From positions 1 through 37,192 of IMG/VR virus record IMGVR_UViG_3300021438_000041: a stretch of DNA of 37,192 bases. One strand, written 5' to 3'. Source of the DNA: a virus. This document shows positions 17,635 through 30,494 of this stretch, one piece after another. The position numbers and the translations under genes were made by a program. How positions within the stretch are numbered: position 1 is the first letter of the stretch; every line of letters starts with the position of its first letter. The notes beneath the pieces were generated by a model, which searched no databases, had not been told where the DNA came from, and worked only from the letters and a program-made list of their open reading frames with translations.

Positions 17635-18546
17635 CTAGGCGGCAGTCGGTGGTTCTCCAAGGTTCAAGGCCGGCAGGCAGTCCACACTGCTCTGTTCCGT
17701 GGGACAGATGGTGGGGTCAACGTACCGCTCTTGGAGTTTCGGATCGCTGTGGTCGAGCACCTGGGTGGCTGCCGCCGTACCGCCCGCTAGGGCTGCGTAG
17801 GAGGCCCGTGTACGCCTTAGGCCGTGGAATCCCCGGTACTTCACCTCGGCCAGCCTGCAGAGCAGTTTTAGGCTCGTCCAGAGCGATCCCCTGGCACGGT
17901 CCCACGGCCATACCAGTTCTTCGGGCTGGCCAGCCTGCGGCTCCATCATCTTGGCCAAGTCGGGCGTAAAGTCCCGTTCAATGTCGTGCGTCTGCCCCTT
18001 GCGGGTTTCGCCAAGGAACCGGACCCGTCGCCGGCCTAGGTCTACTTCTCCCCACCGAAGCGACAGCAACGCGGTTGCCCGTTCCCCGGTGCAGTAGGCC
18101 ATGTAGATCAGCGAACTCCACCACCAGGCGGACGGCTTGCCGCCCGTCTTGCCGTTCCGACGCCGGGCCTGCCGGATCATCTTCGCCACGTCTTCGGACG
18201 TGTACGCCCGCCCCGTGGGGATGGACTTGGCAACCTTGATGCGTGGCAACTCGGGGAAGTCCTTCGCCCACCGTTTTCTGGCCGCCAGATTCCACGCCGC
18301 CTGCAGCATCACCTTGTCCTTCTGCACGCTCGCCGGCCGCACGGGCTTGCCGCGCCACGACTGCGTAGCACGCCATCTGAGGTACCGGCTGATCACCAAG
18401 TCATCCAAGTCCGCCACAGTCGGCTCGTGGCCTAGGAACGCACGCAGGCGGTCCAGCAGCATCGAGTACAGGGCCGCCGTCTTCGGGTTGAGGTTTCGCA
18501 AGTCTGAGTACCGCTCGAACAGTTCTTTCAGCGTCATCGGTTCCAT
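17635..18546 (-). CDS. int: Tyrosine integrase
   Basis: Site-specific recombinase for integration and excision. The 303-residue protein has an N-terminal core-binding domain (about 5-100) and a catalytic domain with R156 in YCTGERATALLSLRW, a Lys near 183 (ETRKGQ), H241 and R244 in FHGLRRTRASY, H266 in LDHSD and nucleophile Y275 in ERYVDP. AAGGAG lies 6-7 bp before ATG 18546, so I choose that start; ATG 18564 would add MAKEKT. It is the only - strand gene. The host target and attP core cannot be read from this window alone; attP is often beside int, here probably within 17546-17634 or 18547-18754. Confidence 0.92.
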   Translation of the reverse strand: MEPMTLKELFERYSDLRNLNPKTAALYSMLLDRLRAFLGHEPTVADLDDLVISRYLRWRATQSWRGKPVRPASVQKDKVMLQAAWNLAARKRWAKDFPELPRIKVAKSIPTGRAYTSEDVAKMIRQARRRNGKTGGKPSAWWWSSLIYMAYCTGERATALLSLRWGEVDLGRRRVRFLGETRKGQTHDIERDFTPDLAKMMEPQAGQPEELVWPWDRARGSLWTSLKLLCRLAEVKYRGFHGLRRTRASYAALAGGTAAATQVLDHSDPKLQERYVDPTICPTEQSSVDCLPALNLGEPPTAA

Positions 18547-18564
18547 CGTCTTCTCCTTTGCCAT

Positions 18565-18582
18565 AGTGTACAAAAATACACT
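18565..18582. promoter_or_regulatory. Inverted repeat in the int leader, candidate operator
   Basis: AGTGTA (18565-18570) and TACACT (18577-18582) form a perfect 6-bp inverted repeat around CAAAAA, 19 bp upstream of the integrase start. Read on the - strand, TACACT could serve as a -10 element, so a protein bound here would block int. Half-site symmetry suits a dimeric repressor or excisionase. Confidence 0.5.
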
Positions 18583-18710
18583 GGACAAAACGACGACTCC
18601 CCTCGCCTCCACTCATACTTTGCCCAGCACCCAACTATCGGCGCTCGGCCGTTCCGATTCTGCGGGACGTGTCGGGATGGCGATTTGCGGGGGCTGGGCG
18701 CTCGGACAGT

Positions 18711-20783: not shown

Positions 20784-21620
20784 ATGAGCACGGAAATCAG
20801 CACACAGCGGGCCAGCGGCTTGGCCCTTCAATCGTTCGACGACGCCTTCCGGTTCTCCAAGATGGTGGCGGCTTCTGAGTTCGCCCCAAAGGACTTCAAG
20901 GGCAAGCCGGAATCCTGCCTGCTGGCCATCCAGCACGGGAGCGAAGTGGGCCTGTCGCCCATGCAGAGCCTGCAGTCAATCGCCGTCATCAACGGCCGGC
21001 CGACGATTTGGGGAGACGCGGCCCTGGCCCTGGTGCAGAGCAGCCCCGTCTGCGAGTACGTCCGCGAGTACACGGAAGGTGACGGCGACAACATGGCCGC
21101 CGTCTGCGAAGCCAAGCGGCGTGGATACCCGGCACCAACGACGGTGCGGTTCTCGGTGGCCGACGCCAAGAAAGCCGGCTTGTGGGGCAAGTCTGGCCCG
21201 TGGACGCAGTACCCGGTTCGCATGCTCCAGCTGCGGGCTCGCGGCTTCGCCCTGCGTAACGCCTTCGCGGACGCCCTGCGTGGGCTGATCACGGCCGAGG
21301 AGGCTCAGGACTACCCGACGCCCGAGCCGGCCAAGGAGCCCGTCGTGGTGCGGCCCAAGTTCCCCGAGCCGAGCACTCCGCAGCCGCTTGAGGATGACCC
21401 GATGGCGAAGGCCAAGATCGCCGTGAACCGTGCCGCGACGGTGGCGGACTTGAACCGTCTTCGCTCGCTTGTGCAGCAACGCCGGAACGAAGGCAAGTTC
21501 ACCGAGGCCCAGCACAAGGAGCTTGTGGCCTTGATGATCGGCAAGGCCGAAATGCTGCCAGACGACGACACCGGCCTGGCGTTCGAGCACGAAGCCGCTC
21601 AGCACGAGGTGCAGGCATGA
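20784..21620 (+). CDS. recT: RecT-like single-strand annealing protein
   Basis: Recombinase that pairs single strands during phage recombination. The 278-residue protein shows the RecT pattern: helical start, GSEVGLSPMQSLQSIAVING, RPTIWGDAALALVQSS, then VADAKKAGLWGKSGPWTQYP, RMLQLRARGFALRNAFADAL and RGLITAEEAQD. The C-terminal 80 residues are Pro-rich, then helical and acidic. No partner exonuclease (YqaJ or RecE type) is visible nearby, so a host nuclease may supply single strands. It heads the replication block and the next gene overlaps its stop. Confidence 0.8.
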   Translation: MSTEISTQRASGLALQSFDDAFRFSKMVAASEFAPKDFKGKPESCLLAIQHGSEVGLSPMQSLQSIAVINGRPTIWGDAALALVQSSPVCEYVREYTEGDGDNMAAVCEAKRRGYPAPTTVRFSVADAKKAGLWGKSGPWTQYPVRMLQLRARGFALRNAFADALRGLITAEEAQDYPTPEPAKEPVVVRPKFPEPSTPQPLEDDPMAKAKIAVNRAATVADLNRLRSLVQQRRNEGKFTEAQHKELVALMIGKAEMLPDDDTGLAFEHEAAQHEVQA

Positions 21621-22896: not shown

Positions 22897-22925
22897 GGCG
22901 GGATTAAGGCAAAGGAGTGCTAACG

Positions 22926-23612
22926 ATGATTTCCGATGGCGGCCGTCGCGGCCGGTTCAAGATAAGAGGGGTTTACTACCCCACGTATAGGTCTGTAAGG
23001 GCCGAGGTGCTTCGTCGTCTATCGAAGTACACCAGCAAGGCACCGGAAGACCTGAGCGAAGAAGACGCAACATGGTTTGTGCATCTGATTCGCGAGATGC
23101 ACCCATACGCGGACGAAAAGTTGTCAAACCAAGTTGTTGCAGTGCGGCGATACAACCGCTACGGCCACCAGGGCAACAACCTGCTTTTGATCTACGCAGA
23201 CGGATCATCAAGCCCTTTTTCGTGGAACAAGTGCTGCAAGGGAAAGCAGTCGTCTGACGGCGCGTCTATCAAGACTGCACTGCGTGCCGCCGTTGCGTAC
23301 CAGACATCTGCGGTGATGCTCTCAGCATTCGCGAACTCAGACACGATTGTGTGTCCGATGTCTGGCGAGGTGATTACGCGACGGCTAGCCCATGTTGACC
23401 ACGCGCCTCCGAAGTTTGCTGACCTTGTGAATGCGTGGCTGATTGATCGAGACATACAACTAGATGACGTGCCGCTCGTTGACGACCCGCAGGGCGGCCA
23501 GCTGATCGCTCCCGGCGACGCGCTGGAATCTTGGATACGGTTTCACGAGCAGCACGCCGTCCTTCGCGTGGTTTCTGCTAAGTGGAACACGAGCGCGGAG
23601 GCGCGACGCTGA
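22926..23612 (+). CDS. DUF3223 (DCL-like) protein
   Basis: A 228-residue protein with the family outline: HPYADEKLSNQVVAVRRYNR then LLIYADGSSSPFSWNKCCKG in the N-terminal half and CPMSGEVITRRLAHVDHAPP in the C-terminal half; the last part is like an HNH-type metal-binding knuckle (Cys, Asp-His). The family has plant plastid DCL proteins (rRNA processing) and many phage and bacterial members with no known role. AAAGGAG is 8 bp before ATG 22926. The stop overlaps the primase-helicase ATG. Confidence 0.7.
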   Translation: MISDGGRRGRFKIRGVYYPTYRSVRAEVLRRLSKYTSKAPEDLSEEDATWFVHLIREMHPYADEKLSNQVVAVRRYNRYGHQGNNLLLIYADGSSSPFSWNKCCKGKQSSDGASIKTALRAAVAYQTSAVMLSAFANSDTIVCPMSGEVITRRLAHVDHAPPKFADLVNAWLIDRDIQLDDVPLVDDPQGGQLIAPGDALESWIRFHEQHAVLRVVSAKWNTSAEARR

Positions 23613-25375
23613 TGGACGCCCTTTCGCAGTGCATAGATTTTCTCGGCGCGATCTTTGAGCCCGAGGACATCATTGAGTTTCGGCCGCTTCCGCCAGCTGC
23701 GGGCCGAAGGTGGTCAACGCTGACAGAGATTCCAGACATCATCGAATGGCTGGATCGGCTTAACCGTGACGAGAACCAGCGCGTCCATGCCTACTTCGGA
23801 GCAAACCCAAGGAAGGCGAAGAACGCCTCGCAGGCCGAAGGCGTCGCCCTGGCCCGGTGCGTGTTCGCGGACTTTGATGGTGGTGTCGTGGTCGAGGACG
23901 CCCTGGCACGCGTTCGCGCGGCTGGCTTTCCCATGCCAACCTCCATTATTGAGAGCGGCGGCGGAGTCCATTTGTGGTGGCGTCTTTCCGAGCCGATGTA
24001 CGACGCGGCTGCATGGCACGAGCGGATGAAGGCCATTGCATCATCCTTGGGCTCCGACCAATCAATCTGCGATTGGCCGAGGATCATGAGACTCCCAGGG
24101 TTCGTCAACTGGAAGTACGAGCAGACGCCACGAGCACATTTATGGGACTGCGACCCGACGCGAATCTACGCGCTGGACGTGTTTAACAAGCAGGCCGTGC
24201 AATCAATCGTCGTCAAGCCTAAGAGCATGAGCGACCTGACTCGCAGGTTCCTTGAGGAGGGATTCACGCTTGCTGCTGGGCGACGGCAAACAATGTTCAC
24301 GGTTGCCTGCGACATGGCCGCCCGTGGGTGGGGCGTGGCTGAGGCCACCACGGCAATCATGGAGCGGATGCGTCGTGTTGGGCTCAGGCAAGACGACCTT
24401 GAAGACTGCCCGCGTCAGATAGCGAACGCCTGGAAGAGGACTCGGCTGCCTGTTCTTGGATCCGCAGACGAAGCCGTTCCAGTTGTTGATGCAGCAGACG
24501 AAACCCCAACGCCGACGCTTCTGGACGCAATCAAGGCTTGGCGCGAGCAAGAAGAGACGCCTGCTCTACCGACCGGCATTCCGGCCCTAGATAAGCTTTT
24601 TGGCGGCGGTCTTCCGCTTGGGCAGATGACAGCCATTGCGGCTGCTCCCGGCCTCGGAAAGTCTGCTCTGGCCCTGCAGTTGGTCCTTCAGTGCCTCGGG
24701 CAGAACCCTGAGATGGTTGCGGCCTGGTGCCTTGGCGAGATGACGCGGGCGGCACTGGCGGCCAGGGCGATCACGAACTTCGGCGGCCAGCCAGAGATGC
24801 TTACGCTGCAGGACGTAATCAAGAAGAGAGAGCCCAGCGACCGGATCGCGTCGGATCTTGGCGCAGCCATAGGCAACCGCCTGAAGTTGATCGAAGCGCC
24901 GCTAATCATTGACAGGATCGAGCGTGCAGTTGCGAAAGACGGCCCGACTTTGCTTGTGGTTGACTATCTGCAGTTGGTCCGCTCCACCCGACATTTCAAC
25001 GACAAGACAGGCGAGATAAACGAGGTTCTCCTAAAGCTTCGAGAAATCACCACTGCCAGAAACATTGCGACGCTGCTGGTCACGAACATTGCCAAGGGGT
25101 GCGACGCCAGCACTGAGATTGGCAACATCGGAAAGGGCTCAAATCAGATTGATTTCGACGTAGACAACTTCCTTTTTGGACACCGCTCCGGGGAAACCGG
25201 GCAGGACGGCGAAATCAAGATTGAGTGGAAGTGCAAGAAGCTTCGCCAGGGCCAGATGGCCGACGTGGAAATGTGGTTTCACGGCCAGTACCAGTACTTT
25301 GAAGACGCCTGCCAGATACCTGACTTTCCAGAGTTTTCCGGCCACGCACCCACTGAGAACTGGGGTGCCGTGTGA
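23612..25375 (+). CDS. Primase-helicase fusion (AEP/RepB-type primase plus DnaB-like helicase)
   Basis: A 587-residue replication enzyme. Residues about 50-200 form an archaeo-eukaryotic type primase domain: FADFDGG (85-91, catalytic Asp), SGGGVHLWW (115-123), ICDWPRIMRLPGFVNWK (152-168). Residues 310-560 form a RecA-fold hexameric helicase of DnaB type: AAPGLGKSALAL (Walker A, 344-355), LLVVDYLQLV (Walker B, D451), TNIAKG (491-496) and the KKLRQGQ element (542-548). The two activities in one chain replace separate DnaG and DnaB. Coupled with the initiator by a GTGTGA overlap, it would be loaded at the origin lying within that gene. Confidence 0.88.
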   Translation: MDALSQCIDFLGAIFEPEDIIEFRPLPPAAGRRWSTLTEIPDIIEWLDRLNRDENQRVHAYFGANPRKAKNASQAEGVALARCVFADFDGGVVVEDALARVRAAGFPMPTSIIESGGGVHLWWRLSEPMYDAAAWHERMKAIASSLGSDQSICDWPRIMRLPGFVNWKYEQTPRAHLWDCDPTRIYALDVFNKQAVQSIVVKPKSMSDLTRRFLEEGFTLAAGRRQTMFTVACDMAARGWGVAEATTAIMERMRRVGLRQDDLEDCPRQIANAWKRTRLPVLGSADEAVPVVDAADETPTPTLLDAIKAWREQEETPALPTGIPALDKLFGGGLPLGQMTAIAAAPGLGKSALALQLVLQCLGQNPEMVAAWCLGEMTRAALAARAITNFGGQPEMLTLQDVIKKREPSDRIASDLGAAIGNRLKLIEAPLIIDRIERAVAKDGPTLLVVDYLQLVRSTRHFNDKTGEINEVLLKLREITTARNIATLLVTNIAKGCDASTEIGNIGKGSNQIDFDVDNFLFGHRSGETGQDGEIKIEWKCKKLRQGQMADVEMWFHGQYQYFEDACQIPDFPEFSGHAPTENWGAV

Positions 25376-25941
25376 CGTACGAGAAACGCGCAGCCAAGGA
25401 GCCATCGCGCCAGGGCGAAATGCGTCGCCGTTGGCGGGCGATGCTCGAAGACGGCTCCCTAGCCTCGCTCAGATCAGAGGGGCGGCTAGCGGCTCTGTAC
25501 GTGCTCTACGCAGCCGACTTCTCGACGTGCCAAGTCAGGATGTCCATCCGTCGTGCCGCCAGGCTTGTGGGAGTCCACCCGACCACCATGCGGAGAGGCA
25601 TCGCACAGATGGTTTCGTCTGGGGTTCTGGAGGTTTTGGAGAAGCCTGAGGGGGCTGGCCGGACAGTTTTCCTTGTCACTGCGCGCGCACCAGTGGTGCC
25701 CCCCCCGGGCACGAGTGGTGTCCAGGAGCGCGCACCAGTGGTGTCCACCCCTGGCACGAGTGGTGCGCGCTCCGGACACGAGCCGTGCGCGGAGCGCGCA
25801 CCAGTGGTGTCCGGAGCGCGCACACTCTGTGCCCGCAATTCATTTAGATCCATTGGTAGTCCAAGTACTACCAATGGGATCTCAAGTAAGGATTCTTCCG
25901 GTGCCGGGCAGGAGCCGGCACCGTCGAATCCAACCGGCTGA
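25372..25941 (+). CDS. Replication initiator (lambda O-like) with origin inside the gene
   Basis: A 189-residue protein. Residues about 30-104 form a winged helix-turn-helix (LASLRSEGRLAALYVLYAAD, then SIRRAARLVGVHPTTMRRGI and VLEVLEKPEGAGRTVFLV). Residues 105-153 are low complexity (APVV and PGTSG runs) because the DNA there is an iteron array; the rest is Ser/Gly/Pro-rich and probably disordered. As in lambda gene O, the N-terminal domain would bind the iterons within its own gene and recruit the helicase encoded just upstream. Start GTG 25372 in the overlap with that gene. No helicase-loader domain is seen at the C-terminus. Confidence 0.78.
   Translation: MTYEKRAAKEPSRQGEMRRRWRAMLEDGSLASLRSEGRLAALYVLYAADFSTCQVRMSIRRAARLVGVHPTTMRRGIAQMVSSGVLEVLEKPEGAGRTVFLVTARAPVVPPPGTSGVQERAPVVSTPGTSGARSGHEPCAERAPVVSGARTLCARNSFRSIGSPSTTNGISSKDSSGAGQEPAPSNPTG
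25688..25831. repeat. Seven palindromic iterons at 22-bp spacing: candidate replication origin
   Basis: An 11-bp near-palindrome CACCAGTGGTG recurs at 25688, 25733 and 25799; variant CACGAGTGGTG at 25710 and 25755; weaker CACGAGCCGTG at 25777 and CACACTCTGTG at 25821. Start-to-start distances are 22, 23, 22, 22, 22 and 22 bp, two helical turns, so all sit on one face of the helix. Spacers often hold GGAGCGCG or TCC. The 22-bp step is out of codon phase, so the same motif is read as APVV in some copies and GTSG in others, showing DNA-level selection. Confidence 0.85.
25846..25882. repeat. Large inverted repeat beside the iterons (origin element)
   Basis: AGATCCATTGGTAGT (25846-25860) and its complement with one extra G (25867-25882) flank a 6-nt loop CCAAGT. 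The core CCATTGGTAGT with ACTACCAATGG is perfect. It follows the last iteron by 14 bp, in the part of the gene with the highest A+T by eye (about 25837-25895), where DNA melting and helicase loading would occur. Confidence 0.75.
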
Positions 25942-25980
25942 TTTGTTGACGACAGAAGAACACTCAAGGACGAGGAACAC

Positions 25981-26199
25981 ATGGACATAGAACGATCAGA
26001 TCTTTCCGCTAGGCAAGCCGAGGTGCTTGAGTGGATCCGGGCCAACTCAAGGCTTTACTCGCCAACCGTGCGTGAAATCGCTAGCGCTCTGGGCATCAAG
26101 TCGCCCAACGGCGTTGTCTGCCACTTGAAGGCTTTGGAGAAAAAGGGCGTCATTCGCCGCACGCCCAAGTCCAGCCGTGGAATCGAGGTGGTTGCATGA
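25981..26199 (+). CDS. LexA-like DNA-binding domain without peptidase
   Basis: A 72-residue protein that matches only the LexA N-terminal winged helix: LSARQAEVLEWIRANSRLYS, then PTVREIASALGIKSPNGVVC and LKALEKKGVIRRTPKSSRGI. The hinge, cleavage site and Ser-Lys peptidase domain of LexA are absent, so it cannot self-cleave and lacks the usual dimerisation domain. It could compete for host SOS operators, act as a SOS-blind phage repressor, or be the remnant of one. GAGGA is about 6 bp before the ATG. The stop overlaps the next ATG. Confidence 0.85.
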   Translation: MDIERSDLSARQAEVLEWIRANSRLYSPTVREIASALGIKSPNGVVCHLKALEKKGVIRRTPKSSRGIEVVA

Positions 26200-26450
26200 G
26201 GAACGACGAAATCATCCAGGGTCTGAAGGAACTTGCACTGTCGTGCGACGTGGCCATCGAGCGTGTTCGCAGCCGCAGCACTATTCGGCAGATTCAAGAG
26301 CAGCAAGTGCTCGTCCTGGCGGCGGCCGACGCCATCGTGCAGTTGCAGCAGAGATTAGTGCGGCAGGCTTGCTACTTCGAGCACATTGAAGCCGTGAACG
26401 AGCCACGGTGGCCGCTGCTCGAAGACGACGATCCGGGGGCAGCGCTATGA
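26196..26450 (+). CDS. Small helical protein of unknown function
   Basis: An 84-residue protein with ATGA overlap to the LexA-like gene. Helical, with Gln-rich segment IRQIQEQQVLVLAAADAIVQ that looks like a coiled coil, and an acidic tail (LLEDDDPGAAL). No family recognised. Coupling suggests a role beside the LexA-like repressor, for instance as a dimeriser; that is inference. Confidence 0.55.
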   Translation: MRNDEIIQGLKELALSCDVAIERVRSRSTIRQIQEQQVLVLAAADAIVQLQQRLVRQACYFEHIEAVNEPRWPLLEDDDPGAAL

Positions 26451-26659
26451 CGATCACCGATTACGTCTGGATCAGCATCGGACAAATCACGCTCGCGGCG
26501 ACGTTCGCCCTGGGCATCTTGATTGGTGTCTCGCTACGAAAGGGCCAAAGGAATGGCGACTGCAACACGGGAACGGAAGGCCACGATAACTCTGGAAACG
26601 TCATCGCTACGCTCGGCGCTGGCCGACGTGCTTCGGGCGGTTCCGGCACGACACGCTAG
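26447..26659 (+). CDS. Small single-pass membrane protein, overlapping the clamp gene
   Basis: A 70-residue frame starting in an ATGA overlap. Residues 7-30 (YVWISIGQITLAATFALGIL) form one clear transmembrane helix followed by basic residues (SLRKGQR). The final 36 residues lie over the start of the dnaN-like gene in another frame and are low complexity. Either a real small membrane protein with a non-essential tail or an incidental frame. Confidence 0.4.
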   Translation: MTITDYVWISIGQITLAATFALGILIGVSLRKGQRNGDCNTGTEGHDNSGNVIATLGAGRRASGGSGTTR

Positions 26660-27668
26660 GCCAGTGCTGGCAAACGTCCGCCTGGGCGACGGTCTGCTGA
26701 GCGGCACGGACTTGGAAGTGCGGATTGATCGCGAGATCGACTACCACGGCGATGCCGTGCTCTTGCCGGCCCATCGGCTCAGTGCCATCCTGCGGGCGGC
26801 TACTGGCGGCGAGGTGTCGCTGCAGCTGCTCAAGTCCAGCGTTGTGGTTCGCTGCGGTTCCGGCTCGTGGACGCTGCCCACTGAGGACGTGGCTGAGTTC
26901 CCGACGTGGGACGCCGGCGACTTGAAGGCCGTCTGTCGCCTGCCGGCGGACCAGTTCGCACGGGCCGCCAGGGCGACGGTGTACGCCACGGATTCGGAGT
27001 CGAGCCGGTACGCACTGGGCGGCGTTCTGCTGGACGTGGAGCCAACGGACGACGGCTCTCGGCAGCACTGGGTGGCGACGGACGGCCGCAGGCTCAGCGT
27101 CGTGGAGACGGAAGCCGATGACGCCGTGGACGCTTCGCAGACTGTCATTCCGGCACGGCTGCTCAGCACCGTCTCAAGCATGGCCGACGGCGACGGCTCG
27201 GTGCAGATTGAGAGCAACGGCAAGGAAGTCCGTTTCACGCTCGACGGCTGCACCGTAACGGGACGGCTCGTTGACGGACGCTTTCCTCGGTGGCGTGACG
27301 TTGTTGGCGAGCCCGAAGGCGAGCCCACCGTGCTCGGCGTGAGCGAGCTGCTCCAGGCGGTGCAGTCTGCCGCTATCGTCACCAGCGAGCAGTCCAAGGG
27401 GATTGACCTGACGTGGACGACCGACACTCTCGTGCTCGTGGGCCGCTCCAGCGAGTACGGCGAGAGCCTGGTGCAGTGCGACGTGGTGAAGGCCGGGAGT
27501 GCTTCGAGCACGAAGGTGGACCCAAAGTACGTAGCCCAGTTTCTGGCCAATCTGCCGAGCGACGAGGAGCCGCACGTTGACGTGTACGCGAAGGATGCCG
27601 AGAGCCGGGTGCTGCTGAAGTGCGGCCCGTACGCCGGCGTCATCATGCCCCTGGCGAAGGAGGCATGA
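26553..27668 (+). CDS. dnaN: DNA polymerase III beta subunit-like sliding clamp
   Basis: A 371-residue protein with the three-fold beta-clamp arrangement: domain 1 ITLETSSLRSALADVLRAVP and VLANVRLGDGLLSGTDLEVR, the TTLPTEDVAEFP-like end of that domain (here WTLPTEDVAEFPTWD), domain 2 FARAARATVYATDSESSRYA then WVATDGRRLSVVE, and domain 3 FTLDGCTVTGRLVDGRFPRW with a hydrophobic end MPLAKEA. It would ring DNA and tether the host polymerase. No phage polymerase is encoded here. AAAGGG (26539-26544) lies 8 bp before ATG 26553. The next gene overlaps the stop. Confidence 0.88.
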   Translation: MATATRERKATITLETSSLRSALADVLRAVPARHARPVLANVRLGDGLLSGTDLEVRIDREIDYHGDAVLLPAHRLSAILRAATGGEVSLQLLKSSVVVRCGSGSWTLPTEDVAEFPTWDAGDLKAVCRLPADQFARAARATVYATDSESSRYALGGVLLDVEPTDDGSRQHWVATDGRRLSVVETEADDAVDASQTVIPARLLSTVSSMADGDGSVQIESNGKEVRFTLDGCTVTGRLVDGRFPRWRDVVGEPEGEPTVLGVSELLQAVQSAAIVTSEQSKGIDLTWTTDTLVLVGRSSEYGESLVQCDVVKAGSASSTKVDPKYVAQFLANLPSDEEPHVDVYAKDAESRVLLKCGPYAGVIMPLAKEA

Positions 27669-30095: not shown

Positions 30096-30494
30096 TTGGC
30101 CGTCACGTTCTCAGTCGCCGGGCAGCCCGTCCCACAGCCGAGGCCGCGAGTCTCGACTGCGGGCGGGTTCGCCCGTGCGTACGTGCCGAAGCAGCATCCA
30201 GTGCATGCTTACCGGCAGTCGCTGGCGGCAGCTGCTCGTGACGCTGGCCTAGGCGAATCGGTCGAGCCGCTCAACGTCGTGATTGATGCCGTATTCGAGC
30301 GGCCCAAGTCGCACATGCGGAAGAGTGGCGTGAAGGCCGACGCACCACGGTTGCCCAGGCCCGACGTAGACAACCTGGCCAAGGCAGTTCTTGACGCCTT
30401 GCAGGACGTGATGGGCGATGACACGAACGTGGCCCGCTTGGTGGTGGAGAAGAGCTACGGAACGGAGGCACGGACTACCGTGCGAATCTCGTGA
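30096..30494 (+). CDS. rusA: RusA-family Holliday junction resolvase
   Basis: A 132-residue endonuclease that resolves four-way junctions formed in recombination. Family marks: an N-terminal strand VTFSVAGQPVPQPRPRVS and the acidic catalytic segment RPDVDNLAKAVLDALQDVMG then DDTNV, with a KS-G-EARTTVRI end. TTG 30096 gives the expected N-terminus and no ATG or GTG in phase fits better. It would complement the RecT-like annealer. Confidence 0.88.
   Translation: MAVTFSVAGQPVPQPRPRVSTAGGFARAYVPKQHPVHAYRQSLAAAARDAGLGESVEPLNVVIDAVFERPKSHMRKSGVKADAPRLPRPDVDNLAKAVLDALQDVMGDDTNVARLVVEKSYGTEARTTVRIS

Follow-up and report, generated by a model that had tools for sequence, protein, structure and literature searches.

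A probable replication origin inside the initiator gene of an uncultured environmental phage, with seven palindromic iterons and two covarying hairpins

We analyzed the IMG/VR virus record IMGVR_UViG_3300021438_000041, an environmental phage, over its positions 1–37,192 (37,192 bp), and refer to this whole stretch as the window. On the plus strand, a gene for a 597-aa protein (23582..25375) in which an AEP-type primase is fused to a DnaB-type helicase is followed by a 189-aa open reading frame with a GTG start (25372..25941), whose start overlaps the stop of the helicase gene and which we call the initiator gene. Pfam places the primase part in RepB_primase (PF16793, E 2.6e-7, 31.1 bits against a cut-off of 24.3) and the helicase part in DnaB_C (PF03796, E 1.5e-20, above cut-off), so that a primase-helicase does lie directly upstream, as the initial annotation of this DNA had proposed. 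Just upstream of it is a gene for a DUF3223 protein (22917–23612). Directly downstream of the initiator gene, a 72-aa protein with a LexA-type DNA-binding domain only (25981–26199) is found at many loci, with 34–68% identity in relatives, and a homolog of the DNA polymerase III beta clamp (26553–27668) lies downstream of the origin gene in most relatives. The window also encodes a RecT-like annealing protein (20784–21620), a RusA-like Holliday junction resolvase (30096–30494) and, on the minus strand, a tyrosine integrase (17635–18612) that suggests a temperate phage; a search of GTDB genomes with the helicase profile did not bring up any related prophage.

The initiator gene contains an array of seven 11-bp palindromes of the form CACN5GTG (25688..25831), often extended to GGACAC/GCGCAC..GTGTCC/GTGCGC, which start at 25688, 25710, 25733, 25755, 25777, 25799 and 25821 and are therefore spaced by exactly 22, 23, 22, 22, 22 and 22 bp, as previously read from the letters. 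Single copies of the 11-bp motif are not unusual, with 19 occurrences in the window versus 17 expected; pairs of it at 22-bp spacing were observed five times and never in 100 shuffles, and the array is the top-scoring tandem repeat in the whole window. Its lag-22 self-identity is 0.55, versus 0.29 for dinucleotide shuffles and 0.36 for synonymous recodings of the same peptide, an excess of 6.8 and 5.8 sd, respectively. Since the 22-bp period does not divide into whole codons, the copies occupy all three reading phases (0, 1, 0, 1, 2, 0, 1), and the earlier remark that they run out of codon phase, surfacing as APVV or GTSG, was correct. Pooled pairs of relatives show 111, 65 and 255 substitutions at codon positions 1, 2 and 3 in the winged-helix part of the gene versus 46, 47 and 56 in the array, a contrast whose chi-square p value of ∼2e-6 is optimistic, as some pooled pairs share sequences. 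Divergence is also lower in the array (8.0%) than in the winged-helix part (13.6%) of the pooled relatives. The absence of a third-position bias, together with lag-22 identity above that of synonymous recodings, upholds the proposal that selection here acts on the DNA.

Beginning 4 bp past the last iteron is an A+T-rich segment (25835..25894), a candidate DNA unwinding element. Its A+T content of 62%, versus a genome mean of 38% and 27% in the array itself, is reached by ∼0.01% of the genome's 60-bp windows and is essentially the genome maximum, which substantiates the more A+T-rich stretch noted earlier at this place. Within the segment lies an inverted repeat, H1, CCATTGGTAGT-ccaagt-ACTACCAATGG (25850..25877), which extends to ∼25846–25881 with a bulge; what had been described as a near-perfect 15-bp inverted repeat consists of 11 perfect pairs and a 6-nt loop, or ∼15 pairs with one bulge, and has a folding z of ∼−6. 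Relative to the H1 center, the iteron centers lie at −171, −149, −126, −104, −82, −60 and −38. The segment further contains five CA-words at 25841, 25851, 25862, 25872 and 25883, which run through H1 in steps of 10, 11, 10 and 11 bp; in most homologs they lie at −23, −13, −2, +8 and +19/+20 from the H1 center, the last step being 12 in most relatives. Since the first, third and last of them fall outside the H1 stem, the CA-words are not explained by pairing, and they may be counterparts of the short direct repeats of unwinding elements. These ∼10–11-bp repeats are an addition to what had been annotated, as is a second, G+C-rich inverted repeat, H2, CGGTGCCGG-gcaggag-CCGGCACCG (25899..25923), with its center 47 bp from that of H1 and a 7-nt loop of recurrent form.

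Both hairpins covary. In 20 homologs, 96.5% of the cells in H1 are paired and both sides have changed in 10 of its 12 pairs; the corresponding values for H2 are 85.7% and 8 of 10. No shuffle of 500 reached the covariation score of H1, the count for H2 was likewise 0 of 500, and slid versions of H1 are at most 50% paired. The exceptions to pairing in H1 fall mostly on one G-G position, where CAGTG is kept in both arms, as though keeping the direct repeat mattered more there than pairing. The distance between the H1 and H2 centers is 47 bp everywhere except in one group of relatives (L051, L052 and L056), where it is 53 bp. Although kinship inflates these counts, the slide controls and the fixed distance make a chance origin of the covariation unlikely. 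Neither hairpin is followed by a T-run, which rules both out as terminators, and an Rfam search of 25000–26500 returned sub-threshold chance matches only.

The protein encoded around these elements falls into two parts. AlphaFold2 predicts a confident winged helix over residues ∼13–102, with a pLDDT above 90 for most of residues 30–90, in agreement with the N-terminal winged helix suggested by the initial annotation. Residues 108–189, which are the origin DNA read through as protein, are predicted to be disordered, with a pLDDT below 50 over 108–182. Neither Pfam, above its cut-off, nor PHROG gives a match to the initiator. Its predicted fold matches generic winged helices and MarR/CodY-like regulators in the PDB (best E 3e-3), and helix-turn-helix proteins including a lambda-O-like protein among viral models (E 6.5e-5). 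With tblastn it has no match in the 50,697 INPHARED records of cultured phages; plasmids gave no significant match, and the protein receives no RepC-family assignment, having no Pfam match above cut-off. By these comparisons the initiator would belong to a family with no recognized relatives in the libraries searched, which covered cultured phages, plasmids and protein families.

Relatives were found in IMG/VR, at 33 loci by the initiator (36–90% identical) and at 23 loci by the upstream gene, with many contigs shared between the two sets. The initial annotation had suggested looking for the array in homologs of the 25372 product: every homolog fetched carries it at the same place while the linker peptide varies, and the same linker with no DNA periodicity was not seen among them. 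Lag-22 identity is 3 to 10 sd above dinucleotide shuffles in 20 distinct homologs, L063 being the weakest, and the reading frame stays open across this region in all homologs. Iteron center positions are identical in the window and 11 further homologs with seven sites, and in L042 with six. The main lineage keeps the 22, 23, 22, 22, 22, 22 spacing including the 23-bp gap, which is thus inherited rather than noise, and L049–L052 have five to seven sites at mostly 22-bp steps. In three relatives that form one clade with full support (L053, L060 and L063), the iterons are of a GGRA..TGTTCC type instead of CACN5GTG, and the recognition helix reads HRGLNE or SRGIAE versus RRGxxQ elsewhere. A coincident change of this sort fits the expectation that the iteron sequence covaries with the DNA-binding residues, but as it happened once on the tree it is suggestive and falls short of statistical proof.

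We additionally searched for arrays without any protein reference, using four CACN5GTG at 22-bp steps as the pattern, across 2.9 million viral contigs and the GTDB genomes. All 46 matches in viral contigs carry the initiator and 44 of them the helicase, the remaining two being short fragments. The GTDB genomes gave 105 matches to the four-iteron pattern, none of them with the initiator or helicase. These 105 stretches (L064–L168) are 22-bp-period CACN5GTG arrays with the appearance of plain tandem repeats, and in many cases numerous contigs come from a single assembly (Prevotella, Nocardioides or Tannerellaceae). A search for a host among the GTDB genomes by means of the helicase profile gave no matches, and a Planctomycetota sample yielded remote AEP domains only, without the array.

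Between lineages, the gene upstream of the initiator differs in its N-terminal part (RepB_primase type, PriCT_2 type or no primase) and keeps its DnaB part. In the primase-helicase alignment, DFD, SGGGVH and the Walker A residues are invariant; when the primase domain is compared with PDB sequences the best match is a PrimPol and RepB′ is not matched, its AlphaFold2 model is poor (pLDDT 50), and plasmid matches of the upstream helicase cover the DnaB part only. In L043 (3043–4980), L190 and L197 another region takes the place of the primase region; L043, the one scanned, has a PriCT_2 match there. A relative of the DUF3223 gene likewise stands just upstream of these exchanged-primase genes. 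In others, including L174 (7306–8607) and L192 (3044–4345), there is a shorter DnaB-type helicase without a primase domain (433 aa in these two), whose DnaB part is ∼38–40% identical. A DnaB-type helicase gene is upstream in all lineages examined, and the iterons and H1 are present despite all of these exchanges, with an H2-like, less regular hairpin in several. The persistence of iterons and H1 indicates that the constant core comprises the initiator, the iterons, the A+T-rich H1 and a DnaB-type helicase, and since H1 persists without the same primase, it becomes less likely that the hairpins serve one specific primase as its sites.

The DNA anatomy of this locus, its fixed geometry, the constraint at the DNA level, the covariation of H1 and H2 and the linkage to a replicative helicase are established here, together with the winged helix as a prediction, and from the sequence we infer origin function, protein binding and a role of the hairpins in the phage. 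Very probably, the phage replicates from an origin inside the 3′ half of its own initiator gene that operates in the manner of lambda ori. The best reading is of a theta-type iteron origin, with the architecture of lambda ori and unrelated components. GC skew shows no clear switch in the 37-kb window, and is uninformative on the origin since nearly all genes share one direction.

In lambda, the iterons are 19-bp inverted repeats within gene O, and the O dimers that bind them open an A+T-rich region of 40 bp (PMC5043065; PMC7466680). The locus described here resembles the origins and O proteins of lambda and the Stx phages in having the origin in the initiator gene, iterons that are inverted repeats spaced by some two helical turns, an adjoining A+T-rich unwinding region, an N-terminal winged helix (predicted here) and adjacent replication genes. 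Unlike in lambda, the iterons have another sequence, a period of 22 rather than about 19 bp and number seven rather than four or six; the initiator has no Phage_rep_O or O-like PHROG match and resembles O at the fold level only, which agrees with the initial annotation that family and motif differ from lambda O. A C-terminal helicase-recruitment domain like that of lambda O is apparently lacking, a point against the lambda-like reading, as residues 108–189 are predicted to be disordered rather than folded, and no P-like loader gene was recognized beside the initiator among the neighbors typed. The phage has its own helicase upstream, with a primase in the window, and differs further from lambda in its two covarying hairpins at fixed spacing and its 10–11-bp repeats through H1.

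In a mechanism along these lines, dimers of the N-terminal winged helix would occupy the seven palindromes, all placed at almost the same face of the helix since 22 bp is about two turns, and the resulting nucleoprotein complex would strain and open the adjoining A+T-rich segment. The helicase encoded by the overlapping upstream gene would then be loaded on the opened strand. First primers might be made by the helicase-fused primase domain in the lineage of the window and by the host primase in lineages with a plain DnaB-type helicase. H1 and H2 may act after strand separation, as hairpins or cruciforms that mark the entry of helicase or primase.

The main rival lies within this same frame and concerns priming. 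In the IncQ plasmid RSF1010, RepC acts on iterons, RepA unwinds and RepB′ primes 3′ of ssi stem-loops (PMC4234260; PMC4538821). By analogy, the initiator would open the DNA, and the RepB-type primase would recognize H1 and/or H2 as ssiA/ssiB-like hairpins and start primers beside them. The phage locus shares with the RSF1010 oriV its iterons, a putative iteron-binding initiator, a dedicated DnaB-like helicase encoded with the primase (in RSF1010 a hexamer of the RecA/DnaB fold, here the DnaB_C match), a primase above the Pfam cut-off for the family of RepB′ and two inverted repeats beside an A+T-rich region, which here covary at a fixed distance, H2 with its recurrent 7-nt loop. In contrast to RSF1010, primase and helicase are fused, the iterons lie inside the initiator gene and the initiator is without sequence match to plasmid initiators. 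H1, and in several cases an H2-like hairpin, stay with the iterons where the primase domain is replaced by one with PriCT_2 or is missing; the best PDB sequence match of the primase domain is a PrimPol rather than RepB′, and the H1 palindrome would equally suit a double-stranded binding site. We consider this type of priming possible but rather unlikely. Replicons and phages of the pRN1 type likewise unite an AEP primase with a helicase and a winged helix and have, at the origin, a structured stem-loop that varies in sequence and keeps its structure (PMC4234260), but there the functions sit in one protein with an SF3 helicase and no iterons, whereas here the helicase is DnaB-type and the iterons are the main feature.

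An operator array, through which the protein would repress or activate the replication operon or the downstream LexA-like gene while the origin lies elsewhere, would suit palindromic sites, a generic winged helix resembling MarR/CodY regulators and a LexA-type gene just downstream. It is improbable, however, for seven sites within the 3′ end of a gene, next to the A+T maximum of the genome and two covarying hairpins at fixed distance, in constant linkage to a replicative helicase; moreover, promoter-like sequence was not found in 25300–26250, and the LexA-like gene is not always detectable in relatives. Partition sites, too, typically contain palindromic repeats in helical phase, but a centromere-like partition or incompatibility site is very improbable in a phage with an integrase, with replication genes as neighbors of the array and, among the window proteins tested, none that resembles ParA or ParB. 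That the periodicity is a by-product of a repetitive protein linker, as the open frame across all homologs might suggest, is ruled out by the phase and codon-position tests and hardly credible for a segment predicted to be disordered, whose lag-22 identity lies far above synonymous recodings.

An origin within the initiator gene is already known as a kind from lambda. New here are the unrecognized initiator family, the rigid seven-site geometry, the two covarying hairpins, the phased CA-repeats and the exchange of helicase and primase partners; in the open-licence literature searched, we found no description of a phage group with such an origin. More tentatively, these features may amount to a composite origin not described before, in which a lambda-like intragenic array is joined to a pair of conserved hairpins and to CA-repeats in helical phase, the hairpins and repeats being used for recognition or priming on single strands, with primase and helicase types exchanged and iterons and H1 retained.

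This computationally defined origin belongs to a group of environmental phages that is widespread and uncultured and has no relatives among the records of cultured phages searched. The group's origin position, initiator and helicase can therefore be named from sequence alone. The ∼20 divergent lineages of the group form a natural experiment: besides a known initiator–site pairing they offer hairpins that covary and upstream helicases of three kinds, which makes helicase loading and hairpin function directly testable. The finding also suggests that the lambda-style placement of an origin in the initiator gene arose, or was retained, in a family that is not recognizable as O by sequence.
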